From: Commensalibacter intestini A911
GTDB lineage: Bacteria; Pseudomonadota; Alphaproteobacteria; Acetobacterales; Acetobacteraceae
Length of the DNA: 64,000 nucleotides
Direction of reading: 5' to 3'
Assembly (NCBI RefSeq): GCF_000231445.1
Contig: NZ_AGFR01000009.1
Location: 248,001-312,000 of the forward strand
Shown here: piece after piece, positions 52,763 through 64,000 of the stretch
How the letters are laid out: each line of letters starts with the position of its first letter
Position numbering within the stretch: the first letter of the stretch is position 1
Notes under the pieces: model-generated
Seen by the model: the letters and a program-made list of their open reading frames with translations, nothing else
Told to the model about the DNA's origin: nothing
The model's database searches: none
Program-made: the position numbers and the translations under genes

Positions 52763-52764
52763 TT
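52724..52764 (+). terminator. Rightward rho-independent terminator next to tpsB
   Basis: A perfect 14-base stem (ATTGAGTTTTTACT, 52724-52737, with AGTAAAAACTCAAT, 52744-52757; loop CAAATA) is followed by TTTTATTT on the + strand. There is no T-run on the minus strand, so it fits an old rightward transcript better than the leftward tpsB that ends here. Confidence 0.7.
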
Positions 52765-54517
52765 ATAACCTGACACCTACACTGAACATGGCGATCCATC
52801 CTTCTGGAGGAAGACCTGCTGTTGTAAGAGCGTGAGTTGCAGAAGCATTCCAGAAGATGGTTCCTGCTGTTTTACGAATACCCAATCCTGCACCGACGAG
52901 GTTCCCACCTTTTTCGGTCTTAGGCATATCAGCATAGGTAAAAACACCTCTAGTCATACCGACATCAAAGATTCCGTAAAGTTCAGTGCCTTTAACTAAG
53001 CTATTACAAAAAATTTGATAGGCATCACAATGCATTTCATTTGTTGGTAAAGACCATGAAAGATCATTACGCATATAAATCCCAGCATTTCCCATCATGG
53101 TTTGTTTTAAGAACCCTCTGACGGTATAAGGCCCCCCAATTTGCATTTGTTCATTACCATATTGGTTCTTGCTCGCATATTCCCCATGAATAGATGTGTG
53201 CCACATAAAATCTTGAGCAATAGGTTGGTAGCCATCGATATCCAAAGAGGGCTTAACATATTGAGTATGGGGATTATAGGTTCCTTGATTGGACGTCCAT
53301 GTCTCGGTGCCCATAGCCCCACCAAGTCCTATCTTCATACCAAGACTTGCATACCATGCGCCTCCCCAAATGCGCATCGATTCACTGGCATTTAGGTTTA
53401 ATGAAGAAAGTCTAGCGCTTTGTGTTCCAATACGTGAATGCTCAATATAGCTATCAAAGGATTTTAATTCATAGGTTGCTTGTAAGGTTGTCACCCCAAT
53501 TGAGTTTCGTGCAACAACACGTGAAGCGCCGATATGAAAATCTTTATTGGTTGAATCAAAACGTCCACGTCCTTGCCAAGCATAATCAACATGATAAAAA
53601 TCGTCATATCGATACCATCCACCAAAAAATGTCCATGGCCCAAGCGGAATAGACCCTTCGGCGGTAAAGAAAGAGTTGTGTCGGTCGCTTTGACGATTAT
53701 TTAAAGAATGGTCATATTCAACAGACCACATATCTAACAATCCAAATAAATCTTCAGCAGTTAAAATAGTTCTGCCGATGGTTCTTCCAGAATAACTTTG
53801 ACCATTATTATCTGTTGACACTTGTCCGTGTAAGATCCCTGGATTATTGGCATTAATATTAACGATAGAGGTTCCTGGCTCATCCCCTGGAGCAATCTTC
53901 ATCGATGCACTCCAATCAGGAAGGCGGTTCATCTGATCAATCCCTTGCTCTAAATCTCTCAGATTGAGTATTCCTCCTTTAACCCACGGAAAGGCCATAG
54001 TTTCATGGTTGCTTTGCGATATTCCATGAAATTGAAAGCCTTGGACTTTGCCTCCAATGACAACAATATGTAACGTACCTTGTTTTAGATCTTGTTGAGG
54101 CAGGTAGGCTCTTGTTGTGACAAAACCTTTGTCGATATAAGCTTTATTGATTTTATTTAAGATAGAATTCATATCCCCAAGGCTCATACATTTATTTTGC
54201 CAAGGTTTGGTAATATTTTGGACTGTTGACGGAGATATGTTATTTGCATTCACCACTTCAATGGATTGAATGGTCACACAATGTTCAGTTTGAGCATCAT
54301 TATGCTTATTTTGATTGATCTGAACATTACTGGATGGAGGGGGAAGTCCCTCCATAAGTTGTTGCCGTTCTTTATGCTGTAAATATTGCTGATATTGATT
54401 AAAGCTTTGAGGGGAAACAGGTGGAGGTGTCGTTTGCGCTTCTGCATGTTCTCCCATAAAAGGTAAACATACAGTCGCAGCAAGAATAGACCGAAAAAAA
54501 GATACTTTTAAATTCAT
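52763..54517 (-). CDS. Two-partner secretion transporter TpsB (ShlB/FhaC/HecB family)
   Basis: A 584-residue outer-membrane transporter. It has a signal peptide (ILAATVCLPFMGEHAEA), a proline/glutamine-rich linker, a POTRA region from about residue 80 (CVTIQSIEVVNANNISPSTV, then a GFVTTRAYLPQQDLKQGTLHIVV core), and a 16-strand beta-barrel part with the conserved YTVRGFLKQ (the VRGF loop-6 motif) near residue 470. It ends in SVGVRL. FhaC-like proteins export a large TpsA partner through recognition of its N-terminal TPS domain. The TpsA-like gene next to it is divergent and lacks that domain, so the true partner may be encoded elsewhere. Length and motifs look intact. The start has no strong ribosome site. 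Confidence 0.88.
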   Translation of the reverse strand: MNLKVSFFRSILAATVCLPFMGEHAEAQTTPPPVSPQSFNQYQQYLQHKERQQLMEGLPPPSSNVQINQNKHNDAQTEHCVTIQSIEVVNANNISPSTVQNITKPWQNKCMSLGDMNSILNKINKAYIDKGFVTTRAYLPQQDLKQGTLHIVVIGGKVQGFQFHGISQSNHETMAFPWVKGGILNLRDLEQGIDQMNRLPDWSASMKIAPGDEPGTSIVNINANNPGILHGQVSTDNNGQSYSGRTIGRTILTAEDLFGLLDMWSVEYDHSLNNRQSDRHNSFFTAEGSIPLGPWTFFGGWYRYDDFYHVDYAWQGRGRFDSTNKDFHIGASRVVARNSIGVTTLQATYELKSFDSYIEHSRIGTQSARLSSLNLNASESMRIWGGAWYASLGMKIGLGGAMGTETWTSNQGTYNPHTQYVKPSLDIDGYQPIAQDFMWHTSIHGEYASKNQYGNEQMQIGGPYTVRGFLKQTMMGNAGIYMRNDLSWSLPTNEMHCDAYQIFCNSLVKGTELYGIFDVGMTRGVFTYADMPKTEKGGNLVGAGLGIRKTAGTIFWNASATHALTTAGLPPEGWIAMFSVGVRL

Positions 54518-54545
54518 TGTCGTTATCTAAATCAATAACAAAATT

Positions 54546-54595
54546 AAGGAGCTTTTTTATTAATGAGGTCATTCATAGCGGTAAATACATTATGA
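54546..54595 (+). promoter_or_regulatory. Strong ribosome site and 10-codon mini-ORF coupled to the giant ORF
   Basis: AAGGAG (54546-54551) stands 11 bases before ATG 54563, which opens a 10-codon frame (M-R-S-F-I-A-V-N-T-L) ending with TGA at 54593-54595. That stop overlaps the ATG (54592) of the giant ORF as ATGA. The giant ORF has no ribosome site of its own. This could be a coupling leader, or the surviving first codons of a gene whose N-terminal part was lost. Confidence 0.5.
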
Positions 54596-57500
54596 AGATC
54601 TTCAATATTAAAGTTAATCGTTACGGTTGTTTTGTTAACGCTCAAAATAATTTAACGTTAGATGGACAAAATCTTACCAATAATGGAGAGATTTCCTCCG
54701 CAACAGGAACAATAAAAGCTACAATTAACGGTGATATTTCTAATAATAATGGAAAAATTGCAGCTAATAATAGTATCGATCTTGATGCAACAGGAAATAT
54801 GAGCAATCAATCGGGTCAGATCGTTGGTAATCAAGCAGCTTCTATTCATATCAAAGCAAATAATTTAAACAATCAAAATGGGTTAATTCAGACCAATACA
54901 GGTATTATTAATTTAGAGCCTAATAGCTTGAATAATGATGCAGGATCAATTGTTACTACTAATGCTAATATTACGATTAATGCTTCAGAATATATTTTAA
55001 ATAATAACAACGCTCAGATAGGTTCTGAAGGGTCTGGGGATATTGATCTTATTACCCAAAATACTTTGCAAAATAATAATAGTAAGATTTTAACAAATTC
55101 TGGCAATATTTCGATTAACTCTAATAAGTTATTGAATAATTCTGGTGTTATTATTGCTGGAATGGTTAATAATGCGGGTGATTTAGTCTTACATAGTGGG
55201 GATGTTGATAATAGTAACGGAACGCTTCAAGCAACGAATGGTTCTGTTGACGCCCATATTGGGAATTATACTGATACAGGTAATGGTGTATTTTATGCAG
55301 GTAACAATCTAACCATTAATGCATCTGGTGATATGTCTGTTGGAGGAGCCATCCAAAGTCAAAATCAATTTACGCTTAATGCAAATAATTTGAATCTAAC
55401 CAATAAAAATGCGGCTGTTAGTAGTTTAAATGGTAATGGATCTCTTACGATTGTGAATGATCTTATTAATAATGGTAATATTTCTTTTTCTAAAGGCAGT
55501 TTAGCTTTAGACACGGGGTCTTTCGGAAATTATGGATCCATTGATATTGGTGTAGGTGGATTTAACTTTAATGTTAAAGGTAATTTTTCCAATAGAAATG
55601 GTTCATTAGTTACTGATGCAAGTGATGTTACAATTACTGCTTTAGATGGAACTGTTGATAATACAAATGGCCAAATTGGTGTAAAAACCAATGGTAATGT
55701 AACGATTAACAGTCAAGATCTTTGGAATGAAGGTGGATTAATTCGCACGACTACAGGGGCGATTACTTTAAATGTAAATACACTCGATAACCAAAATGGA
55801 TCAATTTTAATTACTACAGGCAAGTTTGCTAATGATGCAGATGAGAAGCGTGCTCAAGGTGCTCATTTGCAAATTAATGCTTCTCAAAATATTAATAATA
55901 CAGCTGGTAAGATTGCTATACAGGAGAGTGGTAATATCGGAATTACCGCTAATAATGGTAATATTTATAACGAAGCAATTGGAGATAGTTCTGGACATAT
56001 TGTAACCGCAGATAGCGCAATAGATCTTAATGCATCTGGTAATATTGATAATAGTAATGCGGGTCAGATTGGTTCTCAAGAAAGCAATAGTGTTACGCTT
56101 AGTGGTCAAGCTTTAAATAATCAGAATGGTTTAATTAGAACCAATGATGGCGATCTTACTTTAACTATTGGATCATTAGATAATAGTAATTCAGGGGCCA
56201 TTCTAACCACAACAGGAAATATTCTGGTCGATGCATCACAGGGAATTCTTAATACTTTAGGTAAAATTGGTGTAGAACAACAGGGGAATGTTACTGTTAA
56301 TGCAAAAACAGGTGATCTGAATAATACTCAAGGAAAAATTTTAACAACTTCTGGGTTGTTAGATGTTGATGTGTATAATTTATATAATAATTCTTCTGGT
56401 CAAATTGGCTCTAAGAATGGTGCTATTGATATTACCTTTAAACATTTAGTTAATAATTCAGGTGTGATTTTAGCTGAAAATAATAGCACTTTGGTTGACA
56501 GTACTGCTAGTGAAGGTAATTGGGGTAGTGTAGCACTTCATGGTGGAGATGTTGATAATAGTAATGGAACTATTCAAGCAACAAGAGACTTGGTGCTGGC
56601 GAATATTTCGAGTTATACAGATACAAGCAGTGGTGTGTTATATGCGGGTAAAAAATTAACACTGAGTGCTTCTGGAAATGTGTCTATTGCAAACGTTATT
56701 CAAAGTCAGGGTGATACCGTTTTATCTGCTAACCAGTTAACCCTTACCAATAAAGAAGCTTCTGTTAGTAGTTTACAGGGAAATGTTAGTCTTAATAATA
56801 TCAATGAGATTATTAATAATGGTAGTATTTACGCATCGCGTGGCAGTTTAAATATTCAACAAGGTGGCATTTTAGAAAATTCAGGAGCTGTATATGGAAA
56901 ACAGCTTGTTAAACTTGATTTAACTCAGTCTATAAAAAATAACGGTGTTATTGTTGATAGTAAGTTAGATAATGGATTAATTCAATCAGATGGAAATGTG
57001 CTGTTAACAGCTTCATCTCTAGAGAATACAGGTTTTATTCAGAGCATAGAAGGGTATATTACATTAGCAATTTCTGGAGATATTTATAATCAATCATTAG
57101 CTGACTCTACTGACTCTTCTGGTGTAATTAAATCTGGAGGAACAGATAAAGATGGATATGGACAATATATCACGATTACAGCTGATAATTTGCAAAATAC
57201 GAATGGCCGAATTTTAAGTGATACTGATTTAACACTTAATATACAAAATACATTGACAAATGGTGGGTATTTACAGGCGAATAAGGCGACAACTTTAGTA
57301 ACACCTAACTTAAAAAATAACGGCGGAGCCATTTTAGCTTTGGGCGGTAATTTATCTATTGGATCTTCAGAAACACAGACAGTTACAGCTGCGATTGATA
57401 ATAGTAATGGTAAGATTCAAGCCAATGGAAATATTGTTATTAATGGTTCTTCTTATCAAAGTTCAGATAAATCTTTTTTAACTGCACAACAACAGTTACA

Positions 57501-60500
57501 GGCTAATTTTACAGGTGATGCTGTTAATAATGGTCAAATGGTTGCGGGTTCAGATTTAACATTTACAGCAAATTCATTATCAAATGGTAAGTTAGGACTG
57601 ATATATAGTGAAATAGGAAATGTTAGTTTAACCGTTTTAGGCCAGGGTGGTATTTCTAATTTTGGAAATATTCGATCTATTGGAACGAATACTCAATTAT
57701 TAATGAATACGTCTACTTTGGCAAACCAAGGTACGATTTTATCTGCAAATAGTGCTGCGTTAACTATCAGCCAACAATTGAATAATCAGCGTGATCAAAG
57801 TGATCCAAAAGTGTTTGGTAAAATTATTACTCAAGGTGGGGATTTAACGATTAATGCTCCTACAGTTGTGAATGCTGGGTTGATCATTACTCCCAATAAT
57901 TTAACAATCACAACCCAGACGATGAATAATACAGGATATGTATCTGCGGATAGTTCCTTAACAGTTAATGCTAGTCATTCGATTGTTGCTCAAGCCGCGT
58001 CTTCTGGTCTTAGTTATGATAGTAATGGTCTTGGTAATGATATACAGACACTTGTTTCGGGCTCCTTTGTTGGTGGAACTGTAAACTTGTCTTCTCAAGA
58101 TATTACAAGTCAAAATGGGTGGATACAAGGTAAGAATTCAGTAACGTTAACGGCAAATACGATTGAGAATACTCAACAAAGTGTTCTTTTAAGTACTAAT
58201 GGAGATGTTACCTTACAGGGGATCGGTTCGACTACAGATAATATTCTTCCAGTTTCTTCTGTGAAGAATACAGGCAGTAATATTCAGGCTTATAATCGTA
58301 TTTGGATTGCGACCCAAAATCTGGATAATACCAATGGTGTGTTAACCAGTGAAAGTGGTAATATTCGTTTAGATCAAGGCTCTTCGGGTTCTGCTCTACA
58401 ATCTTTTAATAATGCAGGTGGCACGCTTCAGTCTTCCCAAGATTTAACATTAAACTTTAGTCAGTTAGATAGTGCTGAAGGAAGTAAAATCTTAGCTGGA
58501 GGACTATTATCTTTAACGATTGGTTCTGATTTTACCAATAATGGTACGTTATGGGGAGGGAAAGGACTATCGTTAACTGTCTCTTCCTTAACGAATAGTG
58601 CAAATAATGTTATTGGTGCTGATAGTGGTAATGTAACGATTAATGCTAAAAATGGCGATGTTACAAATTATGGCGTGATTAAGAATCTAGATTCAAATGC
58701 AGGAAGCCTTCTCATTCAAGCCCAAAATCTTATGAATGATAATGGATCTATTCTTTCGAATTCTAATATTAATTTGCAAATTTCTCAAAATCTAACCAAT
58801 CAAAATAATGGTGAGATTACTGCTTATAACCAAGGAAATATCGTTTTTACAGGAAGTAGCTTTAATAATGCGTATTTAATGCTTGCAGGTGGAACGATTA
58901 CAGGAAGTGTCTCTGGAGATATCAATAATAATGCCAATGGATATATTTATGGAGAAAGTGGGTTAACACTTACTTCAAATGGACAAATTACCAATAGCAC
59001 AAACGGACAAATTGGGACAGGAACTGGGGATTTATCCTTAACGGCATCAACATTGTCTTTTGCTCAAAATGGACAGATTATTTCTAGTGGTGGCAAAATA
59101 TCTTTAAATGCTTCTTCTGGTATGAGCAATAATGGTTGGTTACAAGGGATGGGAGATATTCAAATAACGACCCCAACTCTTGATAACTCCAATGGTACGA
59201 TTGTGAGTATGCAGGGTGGCATGACCATTCAAAAAGATCAAAATGGGAATGGATTAACATCATTAAATAACAATAATGGAACACTTCAATCTACGAAAAA
59301 TTTAACAATTTATACGGATAAATTACAAAGTCAGAATGGTAAGATCTTAACCTATGATGCACTAGGGAAAGGAAATGTTGGAGATGTTGCTTTATTTGCG
59401 AATGCACAAAATGGCGTATTAACAACGCTTGATTTATCAAATGATGGGATTATTCAATCTTCAAAAGATATTGATTTGGCTGCACAAAGTTCAGCTTTAT
59501 CTGCTACAGGAACAATTATTGCAAACCAAACATTAAATGCTGTTCTTGAAGGGGATTTTAGTGATCAAAATATGCTCTTTTCTTCTTTGGGAGTTAATCA
59601 AGATGCTGGTGTTAATTTTACAGTTCATGGAAATTATACGACTAATGAAAACGGAGGACTTACTTCTCGTGGTAATTTAGTTGTTAATGCTGATACGATT
59701 ACCAATAATGGTGTTTTGCTTGCATTGAACACGATGACTGTGAATACAGGTAGTTTGACTAATAATAAAACAGGGGTGTTATCAAGCACTAATGATATGA
59801 CGATTACTACCAGTGGAGATATTAATAATAATCAAGGTGTTATCCAATCTGATCAAGGCTCAATGACCATTGATGCTAAAACTGGTGATGTTAACAATAT
59901 AGGAGGGCTAATTCGCACTCAAGGTGCTTATGGAGATATTACCCTGACCGCAAGGAGCTTTACCAATAAATATTTTGGCAATTTAGAAACAACCACTTTT
60001 ACTGACAAATTAATTGCTAAATATGATACTGCGATTAACGCAGCAGGGCAAGCTTATGCTGGGATGACCAATAAAGAAGTAACTAATACTTATACGATAA
60101 CAACTGGTGTTGTTGGATTGGGGCAATATTATTATAGTAGCGATGTGAAAATCTTAAAGGTTGCTGCGCCAGAGGGTTTATATACAACAGATGGCAAACC
60201 TGCATCGGGTTATGTTTATTATTTTCTTTCTGGGGGAGCGGGTAATCCGAATACCCGTGTTGAGATTACAGCAACAGGAACACAAACAACATTAAACGGC
60301 ACTTCAGCGATTATTTCTGCTGGTAGAGATCTAACCATTGTCACAACAGGAGCCATTAAAAATGATGTAAGTCATATGGAAGCTGGTGGGAATATGCAAC
60401 TTACCGGTGCTTCTTTAGATAATGTCGGGTATCAAAATGATGTTGTATTTAAAGTTGCTTGTTATAATAAAGACTATTGTAGAACATTAAATCCAAAAGA

Positions 60501-63500
60501 CTCTTCAGAACTAACCGATCCATTATTTGGGGATTTTGGTGGTCATGATATGAAGGATCCTCCTAAACGCGTTTGGGGTGCGAATACGGTCAATACTGGG
60601 CTTAGTGGAACAATTGTTGCTGGTGGTGACTTAAAAGGTCAATTTGAAGGGCAGGTTAATAATACAACGATTATTGATGGTGTTTTAAATTATAAACCTA
60701 CAGATCCTGATCGGTCTCCTTCATCAGGTAATTTTGCTCAAACAACTGAAGGCTCTGAAGGAAAAGATGGCTTAAAAGGTCCTGGAAATAGTAATTTAAG
60801 TAGCAGCAGTTCTGATTTAACAACAGTTGATGGTAAAAATAATAATTTAGCCTATAGCGGAGTTACTAATCCACAAGGTGTTGATCCTGGTTTACATGTT
60901 ACTTTACCTGGGTTTAGTGGATCAGGTTCTACAAGTATTAATGATATTTTATCCTCTTTAACGGGTGGGCAAGCACTTTTTAGACCTAATCCTAATGTGA
61001 CAAATGGTAGCTCTAGTGTAAACAATGTATCTGGTGGCAATATTGGTAATACGACAGGAAATGGAGGCACATCAACGGGTAATACTGTCAATAACAGTCC
61101 AACGAATACAGTAACAGGTACAGATGTTACTATTCAAAATCCGGTTCAATCAGGAAATGTTAATACTTCATCAGTCAGTTCAAATTCTAATTATTTAATT
61201 GAAACGCGTCCTCAATATACCTCTGTGAATGAGTTTTATGGCTCACAATATCTATTAAATCACTTAGATATCAATGGATCTTATATGTTCCTTGGGGATG
61301 CTGGGTTTGATACGCAATATATTCAACAGCAATATATTCAAGCCACAGGGCAAAGTTATCCAGGTGGTACGTATATGACCGCCTCTGATGCGATGAAGAC
61401 GTTATTGGATAATGCAAGCACTGAATCTGGTAAACTTGGGTTACAGTTTGGCACGGCGTTAACGGCAGAACAACAAGCTGCATTAAATGAAGATATTGTA
61501 TGGTATGTTCCTCAAGTTGTTGATGGGCAAACTGTTTTGGTTCCTCAACTATATTTATCTCCTAAAACAGATGTGTTGGCGGGTGCTGCAATTAAAGGTA
61601 AAAACGTTAATATTACAGCGGGTTCCATTACAAATTCTGGATTAGTGGAAGGCATGAATTCGATTGCATTAACCGCGACGAATGGGGATATCAGTAATAT
61701 TGGGGGCACGATTAAAGGGGGAAATATTTCTTTAAATGCTCAAAATGGATCTGTGATTAATTCAGATACCGTCAATAATTACTTAGTTAATGGTGGCACA
61801 GGATCTTATTTGGGTTCTCAGGGACAAATTCTTGCTTCTGGCACACTTGGTATTCAAGCGAGTGATAGTATTACGACCCATGGTGGTACAATTCAGTCAG
61901 GCTCTGATTTGGCGATGAAAGCTGGGACGATTAACATTGGATCAGTAGAGTTAAATGCAGCAGCATCCAGTGTAACCCATGCGTCTGATGGCACCTTATC
62001 TTTTGTTGGAAATCAAACCAAGAATTATGGAACGACGATTACAGCGGGTGGAAGTGCATCTTTACAGTCTACGGCTGGGGATTTAACATTATCTGGCAGC
62101 ACCTTGAATGCCACAGGAAATGTCTCTTTATCCTCTGCTGGCAGTATCGGTCTTGATGCCGTTACAGATAGTGGCCTTTCAGACGTCAAAGGACACAAAT
62201 CTAGCGCTTTTAACTCCAGTTCTTTTTCTGATCATAATGAATATACCACAGCGCTCAGTAGTAATGTTATTTCGAATGGCAATATTACGATGGGTGCTAA
62301 GAACGATATTAATCTTGCCGGTTCTGTAGTGTTAGCTGATGGTAATACGTCATTATATGCTGGACATGATGTAAATCTTGGCTCTGTTACGAATACATCA
62401 TCTACATCATCCTCTCATAAGAGTTCTGGTTTATTACAAAAAGAGAAAGAAGCAGGGAACTCGACGAAGACTGAGGAAATTGGATCTCTAGTCGGTGCAG
62501 GGAAAGATGTGACAATTGGCGCTGGCCATGATTTGAATATTGCTGGTACGGTAACGGGTCAAAATGACGTGACTTTGATTGCTGGTAATAATCTTTCAAC
62601 GATGGCAACCAAAGACACAACGGATGATTATTACCATAAGAGCACATCTGGACTTGGTGCCAGTTTTAGTGGTGGGTTGGCGTCTGTTGGTTATCAATCG
62701 AATAAGAGGACGGATACGAGCAAGACGACGACATGGACGTCCAGTGAGATCAGTGCTGGTCATAATCTGACGAGTGTTTCTGGAGGTTCGTCGACCTTTA
62801 CAGGCACGACGCTGAGTGCGGGCAATGATTTAAGTATTAGTGGATCTTCTGTTAATTTTGACACGGTTCATAATACGGTAGATCAAACCCATAAAGAATC
62901 CTCTGTATTTGGCGGGTTGAAGGTTGGTTTAGCCTCTGATTCTGCTGCGGGTCAAGCTGCGCAATATGGTCAAGCTGCTGTTGATATGAATGGCAAAGGC
63001 AGCGCTGCGGGCAAGACCTTGAATGCGATGCAGGGTGGATATGCGGTTGGGAATGCCCTTGCGAATGATGGTGGTGGTTATGGTGGAGGTATTATCTCTG
63101 GCACGGCTCAACTGGGATTTGGTTCTAGTAAGTATAAAAGTGACTATTCGCAAAGCACCGTTGTTGGTTCTTCTGCAACGGCTGGGAATAATTTGAGTGT
63201 TGTTGCGCGTGGTGATAATGCGAATGATGTTCATAATGGGGACTTAACGGCGACTGGGGCTGATCTTTCGGGTAAGAATGTGACGTTATCTGGGAATAAT
63301 GTGACGTTACAGTCTGATTGGGATACGACGCATTCGTCCAGAAAAGGCAGTAGCTTTGGTGGAGCGATAGGGGTTGAAGTTAATACCAAAGGTGATCTTG
63401 GGCTGGCTGCGAATGGCAGTGGATCGCAACAACATGCGAATGGTGACAGTTCTAGTGCGGTGAATACGACGGTCTCTGCGACGGACAAAGTGACGATAAC

Positions 63501-64000
63501 AGCCCCTGGTAAGACGACGATTAATGGTGGGATTGTTTCTGGTAATCAAATTAGTGTTGATACGGGTAATTTAGATATTATCAGCCCACAAGATACTTCT
63601 CATTATAACAGTAGTAGTAGCCAAGTTGGAGGCGGCCTTAAAGTTGGTATTCCTGGAGCTGGTTGGGGTGCTAATGGCAATTATTCAAACCAGACTATCA
63701 AGGATGATTATCAAAGCACAGGAAAGCAGCAGTCTGGTCTTTACGCGGGTGATGGTGGTGTTCAGGTTCATGTTGATGATACGACACATTTAAAGGGTGG
63801 TGTAATCAGCAGCACTGGGGGGAATAGTTATCTAGATACGGGTAAATTGATTTCTGAAAATCAAGAGAACCATTCGAAATGGGATGCGACGTCTACGGGT
63901 GGTGGATTGAACCTTGGCACGGATGCATTGGGTGGATCGTTGGGTCCTCTTGGGGTGATTGCTGGCAATATGGCTGCGAACTCTGGTTTGATTACTGGGG
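54592..64000 (+). CDS. Giant haemagglutinin-repeat exoprotein (TpsA/CdiA-like), N-terminal secretion domain missing, 3' end beyond window
   Basis: One frame stays open from ATG 54592 to the last base, over 3,136 codons, with no stop met when translated line by line. From about residue 14 it consists of FHA-type repeats rich in Asn, Gly, Thr and Ser (blocks such as LDNSNGTI, NNQNGLI, NGDISNNNGKI). A non-repeat segment follows around residues 1800-2030, then a low-complexity linker (about 2044-2197), a CdiA-like NYLIETRPQYTSVNEFYGSQYLL segment (about 2199-2221) and a second repeat zone of the FHA-2 type from about 2324. There is no signal peptide and no TPS domain with NPNL/NPNGI motifs before the repeats; only 74 bases separate it from divergent tpsB. 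In CDI systems a toxin domain follows such a zone; that end is outside the window. It may be a silent cassette, a rearranged gene or an assembly product. Confidence 0.8.
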   Translation, partial: MKIFNIKVNRYGCFVNAQNNLTLDGQNLTNNGEISSATGTIKATINGDISNNNGKIAANNSIDLDATGNMSNQSGQIVGNQAASIHIKANNLNNQNGLIQTNTGIINLEPNSLNNDAGSIVTTNANITINASEYILNNNNAQIGSEGSGDIDLITQNTLQNNNSKILTNSGNISINSNKLLNNSGVIIAGMVNNAGDLVLHSGDVDNSNGTLQATNGSVDAHIGNYTDTGNGVFYAGNNLTINASGDMSVGGAIQSQNQFTLNANNLNLTNKNAAVSSLNGNGSLTIVNDLINNGNISFSKGSLALDTGSFGNYGSIDIGVGGFNFNVKGNFSNRNGSLVTDASDVTITALDGTVDNTNGQIGVKTNGNVTINSQDLWNEGGLIRTTTGAITLNVNTLDNQNGSILITTGKFANDADEKRAQGAHLQINASQNINNTAGKIAIQESGNIGITANNGNIYNEAIGDSSGHIVTADSAIDLNASGNIDNSNAGQIGSQESNSVTLSGQALNNQNGLIRTNDGDLTLTIGSLDNSNSGAILTTTGNILVDASQGILNTLGKIGVEQQGNVTVNAKTGDLNNTQGKILTTSGLLDVDVYNLYNNSSGQIGSKNGAIDITFKHLVNNSGVILAENNSTLVDSTASEGNWGSVALHGGDVDNSNGTIQATRDLVLANISSYTDTSSGVLYAGKKLTLSASGNVSIANVIQSQGDTVLSANQLTLTNKEASVSSLQGNVSLNNINEIINNGSIYASRGSLNIQQGGILENSGAVYGKQLVKLDLTQSIKNNGVIVDSKLDNGLIQSDGNVLLTASSLENTGFIQSIEGYITLAISGDIYNQSLADSTDSSGVIKSGGTDKDGYGQYITITADNLQNTNGRILSDTDLTLNIQNTLTNGGYLQANKATTLVTPNLKNNGGAILALGGNLSIGSSETQTVTAAIDNSNGKIQANGNIVINGSSYQSSDKSFLTAQQQLQANFTGDAVNNGQMVAGSDLTFTANSLSNGKLGLIYSEIGNVSLTVLGQGGISNFGNIRSIGTNTQLLMNTSTLANQGTILSANSAALTISQQLNNQRDQSDPKVFGKIITQGGDLTINAPTVVNAGLIITPNNLTITTQTMNNTGYVSADSSLTVNASHSIVAQAASSGLSYDSNGLGNDIQTLVSGSFVGGTVNLSSQDITSQNGWIQGKNSVTLTANTIENTQQSVLLSTNGDVTLQGIGSTTDNILPVSSVKNTGSNIQAYNRIWIATQNLDNTNGVLTSESGNIRLDQGSSGSALQSFNNAGGTLQSSQDLTLNFSQLDSAEGSKILAGGLLSLTIGSDFTNNGTLWGGKGLSLTVSSLTNSANNVIGADSGNVTINAKNGDVTNYGVIKNLDSNAGSLLIQAQNLMNDNGSILSNSNINLQISQNLTNQNNGEITAYNQGNIVFTGSSFNNAYLMLAGGTITGSVSGDINNNANGYIYGESGLTLTSNGQITNSTNGQIGTGTGDLSLTASTLSFAQNGQIISSGGKISLNASSGMSNNGWLQGMGDIQITTPTLDNSNGTIVSMQGGMTIQKDQNGNGLTSLNNNNGTLQSTKNLTIYTDKLQSQNGKILTYDALGKGNVGDVALFANAQNGVLTTLDLSNDGIIQSSKDIDLAAQSSALSATGTIIANQTLNAVLEGDFSDQNMLFSSLGVNQDAGVNFTVHGNYTTNENGGLTSRGNLVVNADTITNNGVLLALNTMTVNTGSLTNNKTGVLSSTNDMTITTSGDINNNQGVIQSDQGSMTIDAKTGDVNNIGGLIRTQGAYGDITLTARSFTNKYFGNLETTTFTDKLIAKYDTAINAAGQAYAGMTNKEVTNTYTITTGVVGLGQYYYSSDVKILKVAAPEGLYTTDGKPASGYVYYFLSGGAGNPNTRVEITATGTQTTLNGTSAIISAGRDLTIVTTGAIKNDVSHMEAGGNMQLTGASLDNVGYQNDVVFKVACYNKDYCRTLNPKDSSELTDPLFGDFGGHDMKDPPKRVWGANTVNTGLSGTIVAGGDLKGQFEGQVNNTTIIDGVLNYKPTDPDRSPSSGNFAQTTEGSEGKDGLKGPGNSNLSSSSSDLTTVDGKNNNLAYSGVTNPQGVDPGLHVTLPGFSGSGSTSINDILSSLTGGQALFRPNPNVTNGSSSVNNVSGGNIGNTTGNGGTSTGNTVNNSPTNTVTGTDVTIQNPVQSGNVNTSSVSSNSNYLIETRPQYTSVNEFYGSQYLLNHLDINGSYMFLGDAGFDTQYIQQQYIQATGQSYPGGTYMTASDAMKTLLDNASTESGKLGLQFGTALTAEQQAALNEDIVWYVPQVVDGQTVLVPQLYLSPKTDVLAGAAIKGKNVNITAGSITNSGLVEGMNSIALTATNGDISNIGGTIKGGNISLNAQNGSVINSDTVNNYLVNGGTGSYLGSQGQILASGTLGIQASDSITTHGGTIQSGSDLAMKAGTINIGSVELNAAASSVTHASDGTLSFVGNQTKNYGTTITAGGSASLQSTAGDLTLSGSTLNATGNVSLSSAGSIGLDAVTDSGLSDVKGHKSSAFNSSSFSDHNEYTTALSSNVISNGNITMGAKNDINLAGSVVLADGNTSLYAGHDVNLGSVTNTSSTSSSHKSSGLLQKEKEAGNSTKTEEIGSLVGAGKDVTIGAGHDLNIAGTVTGQNDVTLIAGNNLSTMATKDTTDDYYHKSTSGLGASFSGGLASVGYQSNKRTDTSKTTTWTSSEISAGHNLTSVSGGSSTFTGTTLSAGNDLSISGSSVNFDTVHNTVDQTHKESSVFGGLKVGLASDSAAGQAAQYGQAAVDMNGKGSAAGKTLNAMQGGYAVGNALANDGGGYGGGIISGTAQLGFGSSKYKSDYSQSTVVGSSATAGNNLSVVARGDNANDVHNGDLTATGADLSGKNVTLSGNNVTLQSDWDTTHSSRKGSSFGGAIGVEVNTKGDLGLAANGSGSQQHANGDSSSAVNTTVSATDKVTITAPGKTTINGGIVSGNQISVDTGNLDIISPQDTSHYNSSSSQVGGGLKVGIPGAGWGANGNYSNQTIKDDYQSTGKQQSGLYAGDGGVQVHVDDTTHLKGGVISSTGGNSYLDTGKLISENQENHSKWDATSTGGGLNLGTDALGGSLGPLGVIAGNMAANSGLITG

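Follow-up and report, generated by a model that had tools for sequence, protein, structure and literature searches.

The closest described relatives of the locus reported here are the contact-dependent inhibition (CDI) systems, cdiBAI. They share with our locus a TpsB transporter, haemagglutinin repeats, a C-terminal domain of the tRNA nuclease type, and a downstream orphan open reading frame (ORF) with an EndoU domain, and orphan cdiA-CT/cdiI cassettes are known from such systems (review PMC5422565). Our locus differs in that the signal peptide and the TPS domain are absent, cdiA diverges from cdiB, and the remnant of an IalB-family gene lies upstream of cdiB. Recognition of the TPS domain by TpsB is described in PMC10449530. 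The locus lies in a 64,000-nucleotide stretch of Commensalibacter intestini A911, which we call the window; our best reading is a recently disabled CDI island, built on CdiB/CdiA two-partner secretion, in a Commensalibacter species. Since we looked for the export head and did not find it, we do not file the locus as a working CDI system; it is the remnant of one.

The transporter gene is intact. tpsB (cdiB) occupies positions 52763 to 54517 on the minus strand and encodes a 584-amino-acid protein of the TpsB type with POTRA domains, with Pfam matches above cut-off to ShlB (4.9e-55), POTRA_2 (6.4e-22), and POTRA_3 (9.7e-15). It is present in a single copy in this genome. On the plus strand, divergent from tpsB and separated from it by 74 bp, as the preliminary description had stated, a giant ORF begins at ATG 54592. 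This headless cdiA (tpsA) stays open for 3,136 codons to the window edge at 64000, and beyond it the frame runs on within the contig until it meets a stop at 65304 (window numbering). The product would have 3,570 amino acids from ATG 54592, or 3,595 from a TTG at 54517, within a stop-free run of 3,604 codons. Pfam recognizes haemagglutinin repeats in five stretches (Fil_haemagg_2, E 2.1e-44), along with a sub-threshold match to Fil_haemagg, and finds no TPS domain (PF05860) in the ORF. We then examined the first 70 residues by hydropathy and found no signal-peptide-like stretch: the maximum over 12 residues is 0.76, where five congeners reach 1.36 to 1.92 by the same measure. For 70-mers drawn at random from inside the giant ORF the average is 1.01, and the lowest congener value (1.36) is close to this background. 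Both searches thus agree with the earlier statement that signal peptide and TPS domain are missing. The frame was also said to start directly in haemagglutinin repeats, and this proved incorrect, as the opening ~15 codons run antisense to what is left of the 3′ end of the mostly deleted ialB, and tpsA-homologous sequence starts only at about 54635. A native extended signal peptide in these opening residues was considered and rejected, since the alignment shows that they are antisense to ialB.

Comparison with Commensalibacter papalotli MX01 shows what an untruncated version of this locus looks like. The MX01 locus has the same orientation, a TpsB that is 98% identical at the amino acid level, and a tpsA whose main aligned pieces are 81 to 89% identical in DNA; the C-terminal end of this tpsA differs from that of the giant ORF. 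Unlike the truncated locus here, MX01 keeps ialB (L053:14871-15521, whose product is PF06776 at E 4e-17), a divergent region of 267 bp, and the first ~400 codons of tpsA (4,383 amino acids). Coming from the tpsB side, our sequence follows MX01 at 93% identity until ~31 codons into the 3′ end of ialB; the alignment then resumes ~400 codons into tpsA at 81% identity. The 1,986 bp missing in between correspond to ~173 of the 205 ialB codons, the 267-bp divergent region, and ~400 codons of tpsA. What is left of ialB is a 3′ remnant on the minus strand (54544 to 54641), consisting of the last ~31 of 205 codons and the stop, which tblastn matches to residues 175 to 205 of the MX01 protein at 100% identity. 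Alignments to both sides in MX01 place the junction at 54635 to 54641, an imperfect 7-bp microhomology. The missing stretch is flanked by imperfect 7-bp repeats, and the seven shared bases with at most one mismatch are equalled by 0.8% of 20,000 random junction pairs. Five congeners keep the stretch, which suggests that the direction of change is loss here. In this comparison, which takes one genome per species, we consider it highly probable that the headless cdiA arose in one recent event, the deletion of ~2 kb flanked by short imperfect repeats.

Such a deletion would have taken most of ialB and the divergent intergenic region. It would also have removed ~400 codons from the start of cdiA, a part that would comprise the signal peptide, the TPS domain, and the first repeats. 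The lost divergent region would have held promoters, and both the remnant and tpsB are probably poorly transcribed. Predicted promoter-like sites decide nothing in this respect, with one found in 54300-54900 (3.1 expected) and one in the MX01 region (3.2 expected); a terminator-like site lies on the minus strand at 54699-54685, where 0.2 would be expected by chance. Because it has neither a Sec signal nor a TPS domain, the remnant would not be exported. The strain would no longer deliver the toxin, and it may still be immune by virtue of the downstream gene.

We searched for the lost parts in the rest of the assembly, which comprises 2.45 Mb in 26 contigs at an estimated completeness of 100%, with the window at bases 248001-312000 of a contig of 460 kb. 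The TPS family model had no match at E 10, and the TPS-bearing tpsA 5′ end that the preliminary description proposed looking for in the rest of the genome was thus not found. The same model matched in 46 of the 100 genomes searched and in none of 14 control genomes. The head protein of MX01 gave one weak match only (27%, E 0.012), on contig C15; as a candidate TPS head it was discarded, since by eye it reads as an unrelated glycosidase-like gene. With the 1,986-bp missing stretch as query, we obtained ten chance-like matches of ≤39 bp (best E 0.004; 40 of 55 candidates scored). The IalB model found no match at E 10 in the assembly, in a search that had no positive genome from this genus, and matched in one of the 14 controls, below cut-off.

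These results bear on two other explanations of the headless frame. The strain might have an intact ialB-tpsB/cdiA locus that lost ~2 kb between repeats during assembly, and cdiA is indeed repeat-rich in a genome divided into 26 contigs. However, the two sides of the junction have 7 bp in common, one of them mismatched, which is much shorter than the overlaps usual in assembly; the dropped DNA was found on no other contig, and the junction lies inside the 460-kb contig. We therefore regard an assembly artefact as very improbable, and the same points speak against the misassembly between repeated tpsA copies that had been proposed. The other explanation, also raised earlier, is a silent cassette exchanging sequence by recombination with an expressed tpsA at another site. 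Headless haemagglutinin frames do occur in congeners, one of which (G002) has eight Fil_haemagg_2 frames and a single TPS match. In our genome, however, no TPS domain was found and thus no expressed tpsA partner was seen; all four Fil_haemagg_2 matches of the genome fall within this one frame; and the ORF occupies the main cdiA position and carries the ialB remnant at its 5′ end. The chance that this is a silent cassette is slighter still than that of an assembly artefact, and the deletion remains our preferred reading.

To place the deletion in the genus, we used nine genomes, this one (G000) and eight congeners (G001 to G008), among them C. papalotli MX01 (G007), C. melissae AMU001 (G005), and an uncultured Commensalibacter metagenome assembly (G001). 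The TPS model matched strongly in five (G001, G002, G005, G007, and G008), in broken pieces in G006, and not at all in G003 and G004. The same five have a close TpsB (75 to 98% identity; in G001, split in part over two frames); G003 has a distant copy only (50%), and no TpsB match was found in G004 or G006. In these five of the eight congeners, ialB encodes ~205 amino acids and ends 21 to 27 bp before tpsB, tpsA diverges from ialB-tpsB, and the distance between the starts of ialB and tpsA is 264 to 314 bp. Four of them (G002, G005, G007, and G008) have TPS-bearing frames of 4,386 to 5,131 codons, and in the metagenome assembly both tpsB and tpsA are spread over several frames, for which sequencing error is a possible cause. 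G006 keeps ialB, with tpsA broken by frame changes, and even in this decayed locus the pieces of tpsA diverge from ialB. This pattern fits a recurrent loss of the locus in the genus, with decay in G006 and perhaps in G001.

Several further observations were made in the congeners. A second TpsB, 50 to 52% identical, is present in G002, G003, G005, G007, and G008; in the stretches from G007 (L100:5982-7718), G003 (L101:8518-10284), and G002 (L103:7728-9458), no TPS match lies near it, and it is possibly an orphan transporter. The main contig of MX01 carries another, broken tpsB fragment (L084:10001-10996), which covers residues 255 to 584 in pieces at 73 to 88% identity. In G002, where one of the eight open frames with Fil_haemagg_2 has the TPS domain, the other seven are headless frames of 359 to 1,905 codons located elsewhere. 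We also compared the flanks of our locus (the window from 40000 and its 39-kb continuation) with 16 congener stretches, considering only matches outside 54600-63900. This recovered tpsB, a toxin-antitoxin pair, cassette pieces, and scattered matches of up to ~750 bp at 66 to 81%, and no common insertion site was identified among these stretches. Among the papers listed by our literature searches, none contained Commensalibacter, which proves no absence.

The opposite orientation of tpsB and tpsA had been presented as unusual, partner genes being normally co-directional, and a past inversion had been offered as the event that cut the gene. Scanning genome contigs with this TpsB as the seed returned 17 loci: three congener main loci, one tpsB fragment of MX01, and 13 from outside the genus (L071 to L083). 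In all 13 of the latter, tpsB is followed by the TPS domain on the same strand, so the first observation stands for these loci outside the genus; within Commensalibacter, divergence is the rule. The contrast between the divergent genes here and the co-directional ones outside the genus would be expected from a local inversion. However, the divergent order is found in the intact congeners and in all five that keep tpsB and the TPS domain, and both sides of our junction retain congener orientation and order. As the cause of the truncation, a local inversion is the least probable of the explanations we considered. Since tpsB and tpsA are co-directional outside the genus, an older, genus-level rearrangement is likely; it would have inverted or relocated tpsA with respect to ialB-tpsB in the ancestry of Commensalibacter, earlier than the deletion described here, and it is not what cut this gene.

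Following the frame to the right, as had been recommended, leads to a toxin-like end, the stop at 65304, and a candidate immunity gene and cassettes behind it. Judging by sequence similarity, the giant ORF ends in a CdiA-type tRNA nuclease domain: 116 amino acids that end 4 residues before the C terminus match the tRNA nuclease CdiA 7vmc_B (E 5.1e-19). This structure is that of CdiA-CT from Escherichia coli EC869; of the residues named in PMC9071432, with residue numbers mapped by us, His216, Tyr220, Arg271, and His281 are identical at the aligned positions here, while Arg263 is replaced by Gly. The sequence that precedes the toxin does not match. NCBIfam returned nothing for the C-terminal ORFs, and the last 150 amino acids, searched against 200 genomes of the family, were found in this genome only. 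A VENN motif before the toxin is typical of enterobacterial CdiA. Neither VENN nor the variants VDNN and VENS occur in the 3,570-amino-acid ORF. Eight base pairs past the stop begins an ORF of 130 amino acids, which is a candidate immunity gene. It has no family match in Pfam or NCBIfam, shows no convincing match otherwise (best E 0.27), and occurs in one of the nine genus genomes, this one. Orphan CT cassettes lie downstream of the giant ORF, in the form of an ORF with an EndoU domain (E 2e-20) after the 130-amino-acid ORF and a 117-bp stretch that matches, at 92% identity, a part of the main gene preceding the toxin domain. Also behind the candidate immunity gene are a resolvase and a toxin-antitoxin pair of the YafQ type. 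The YafQ-type pair is at 68526-69080 (window numbering), behind the cassettes, whereas in MX01 (L053:17402-17955, 91% identical) it lies beyond the end of tpsB; since the pair is on different sides in the two genomes, the edges of the island have been shuffled.

The long open frame had been taken as an argument against old decay, and our counts bear this out, with no stop and no significant relaxation. For tpsB, dN/dS against MX01 is 0.039; in well-aligned windows of tpsA, it ranges from 0.04 to 0.83. We assigned changes to branches using G002 as the outgroup, which is saturated at synonymous sites, over 2,031 tpsA codons in windows of >80% identity (of 3,391 aligned), leaving out 289 that differ in all three genomes. 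The nonsynonymous share of tpsA was somewhat, though not significantly, higher on this branch than on the MX01 branch (39/76 nonsynonymous/synonymous changes vs 28/81; Fisher p 0.19), amino acid changes numbered 67 and 55, respectively (p 0.32), and the corresponding nonsynonymous/synonymous counts for tpsB were 3/34 and 2/22. By these counts, relaxation on this lineage is not significant, and the loss accordingly looks recent. Given that 3.8% of single substitutions make a stop, two stops would be expected at ~0.5% neutral divergence and four at ~1%, and none was seen. It follows that either the loss is recent or the remainder is still under selection, two cases that the data do not separate; we propose that the recency of the loss explains why the frame has stayed open. 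Columns 1800-2400 of the tpsA alignment with MX01 have a synonymous divergence of 0.08 to 0.10, compared with 0.27 to 0.37 in neighbouring windows and 0.31 in tpsB, and look as if they had been recently exchanged.

A further explanation is that the headless protein has a function in the cytoplasm, where it is made, and is retained for it; its toxin end and the next gene might, for instance, serve as an internal toxin-antitoxin pair. The toxin domain does keep the residues aligned with His216, Arg271, and His281 of CdiA-CT EC869, the 130-amino-acid ORF follows the stop after only 8 bp, and relaxation is not significant. But recency accounts for the open frame equally well, and the start of the ORF is antisense ialB; of three ORF starts compared by eye, the internal ATG at 54799 is the one preceded by the best ribosome-binding-like sequence. 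Moreover, the locus is broken in G006 and appears broken in the metagenome assembly G001, which fits recurrent loss. We give a retained cytoplasmic role little credence, about as little as an assembly artefact, and prefer a recent deletion that left the frame open.

The gene that was largely removed together with the export head may itself belong to the secretion system. Of the 13 loci outside the genus, 12 (L071 to L081 and L083) have an IalB match directly upstream of tpsB; in the remaining one, L082, the match to tpsB begins at residue 166. The same arrangement is seen in all five congeners that have tpsB and TPS. Several of the 13 loci come from close relatives (Bombella, Asaia) and are not independent, and the counts leave out the more distant TpsB loci L031 to L052. 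Five of the 12 IalB matches were run through Pfam, and all five were PF06776. Our searches of open-access PMC found no paper that links IalB-family proteins to two-partner secretion. Tentatively, two-partner secretion in acetic acid bacteria could have a third, dedicated component in the IalB-family protein, for instance a periplasmic chaperone for the giant TpsA, which was kept with tpsB through the genus-level flip of tpsA. The deletion here would then have taken ialB and the export head and left the toxin end and a possible immunity gene, turning a former attacker into an immune bystander. We rate this reading lower because one genome outside the genus, G021, has tpsB and TPS on one strand with no IalB match in the ~1.5 kb examined upstream of tpsB (L030).

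For Commensalibacter, which are insect gut symbionts, the odd giant ORF is best accounted for as ordinary recent gene loss through one deletion, in a locus that has decayed in one other genome of the genus (G006) and perhaps in a second (G001). Beyond the genus, the comparison points to an association between an IalB-family protein and the TpsB transporter in acetic acid bacteria.
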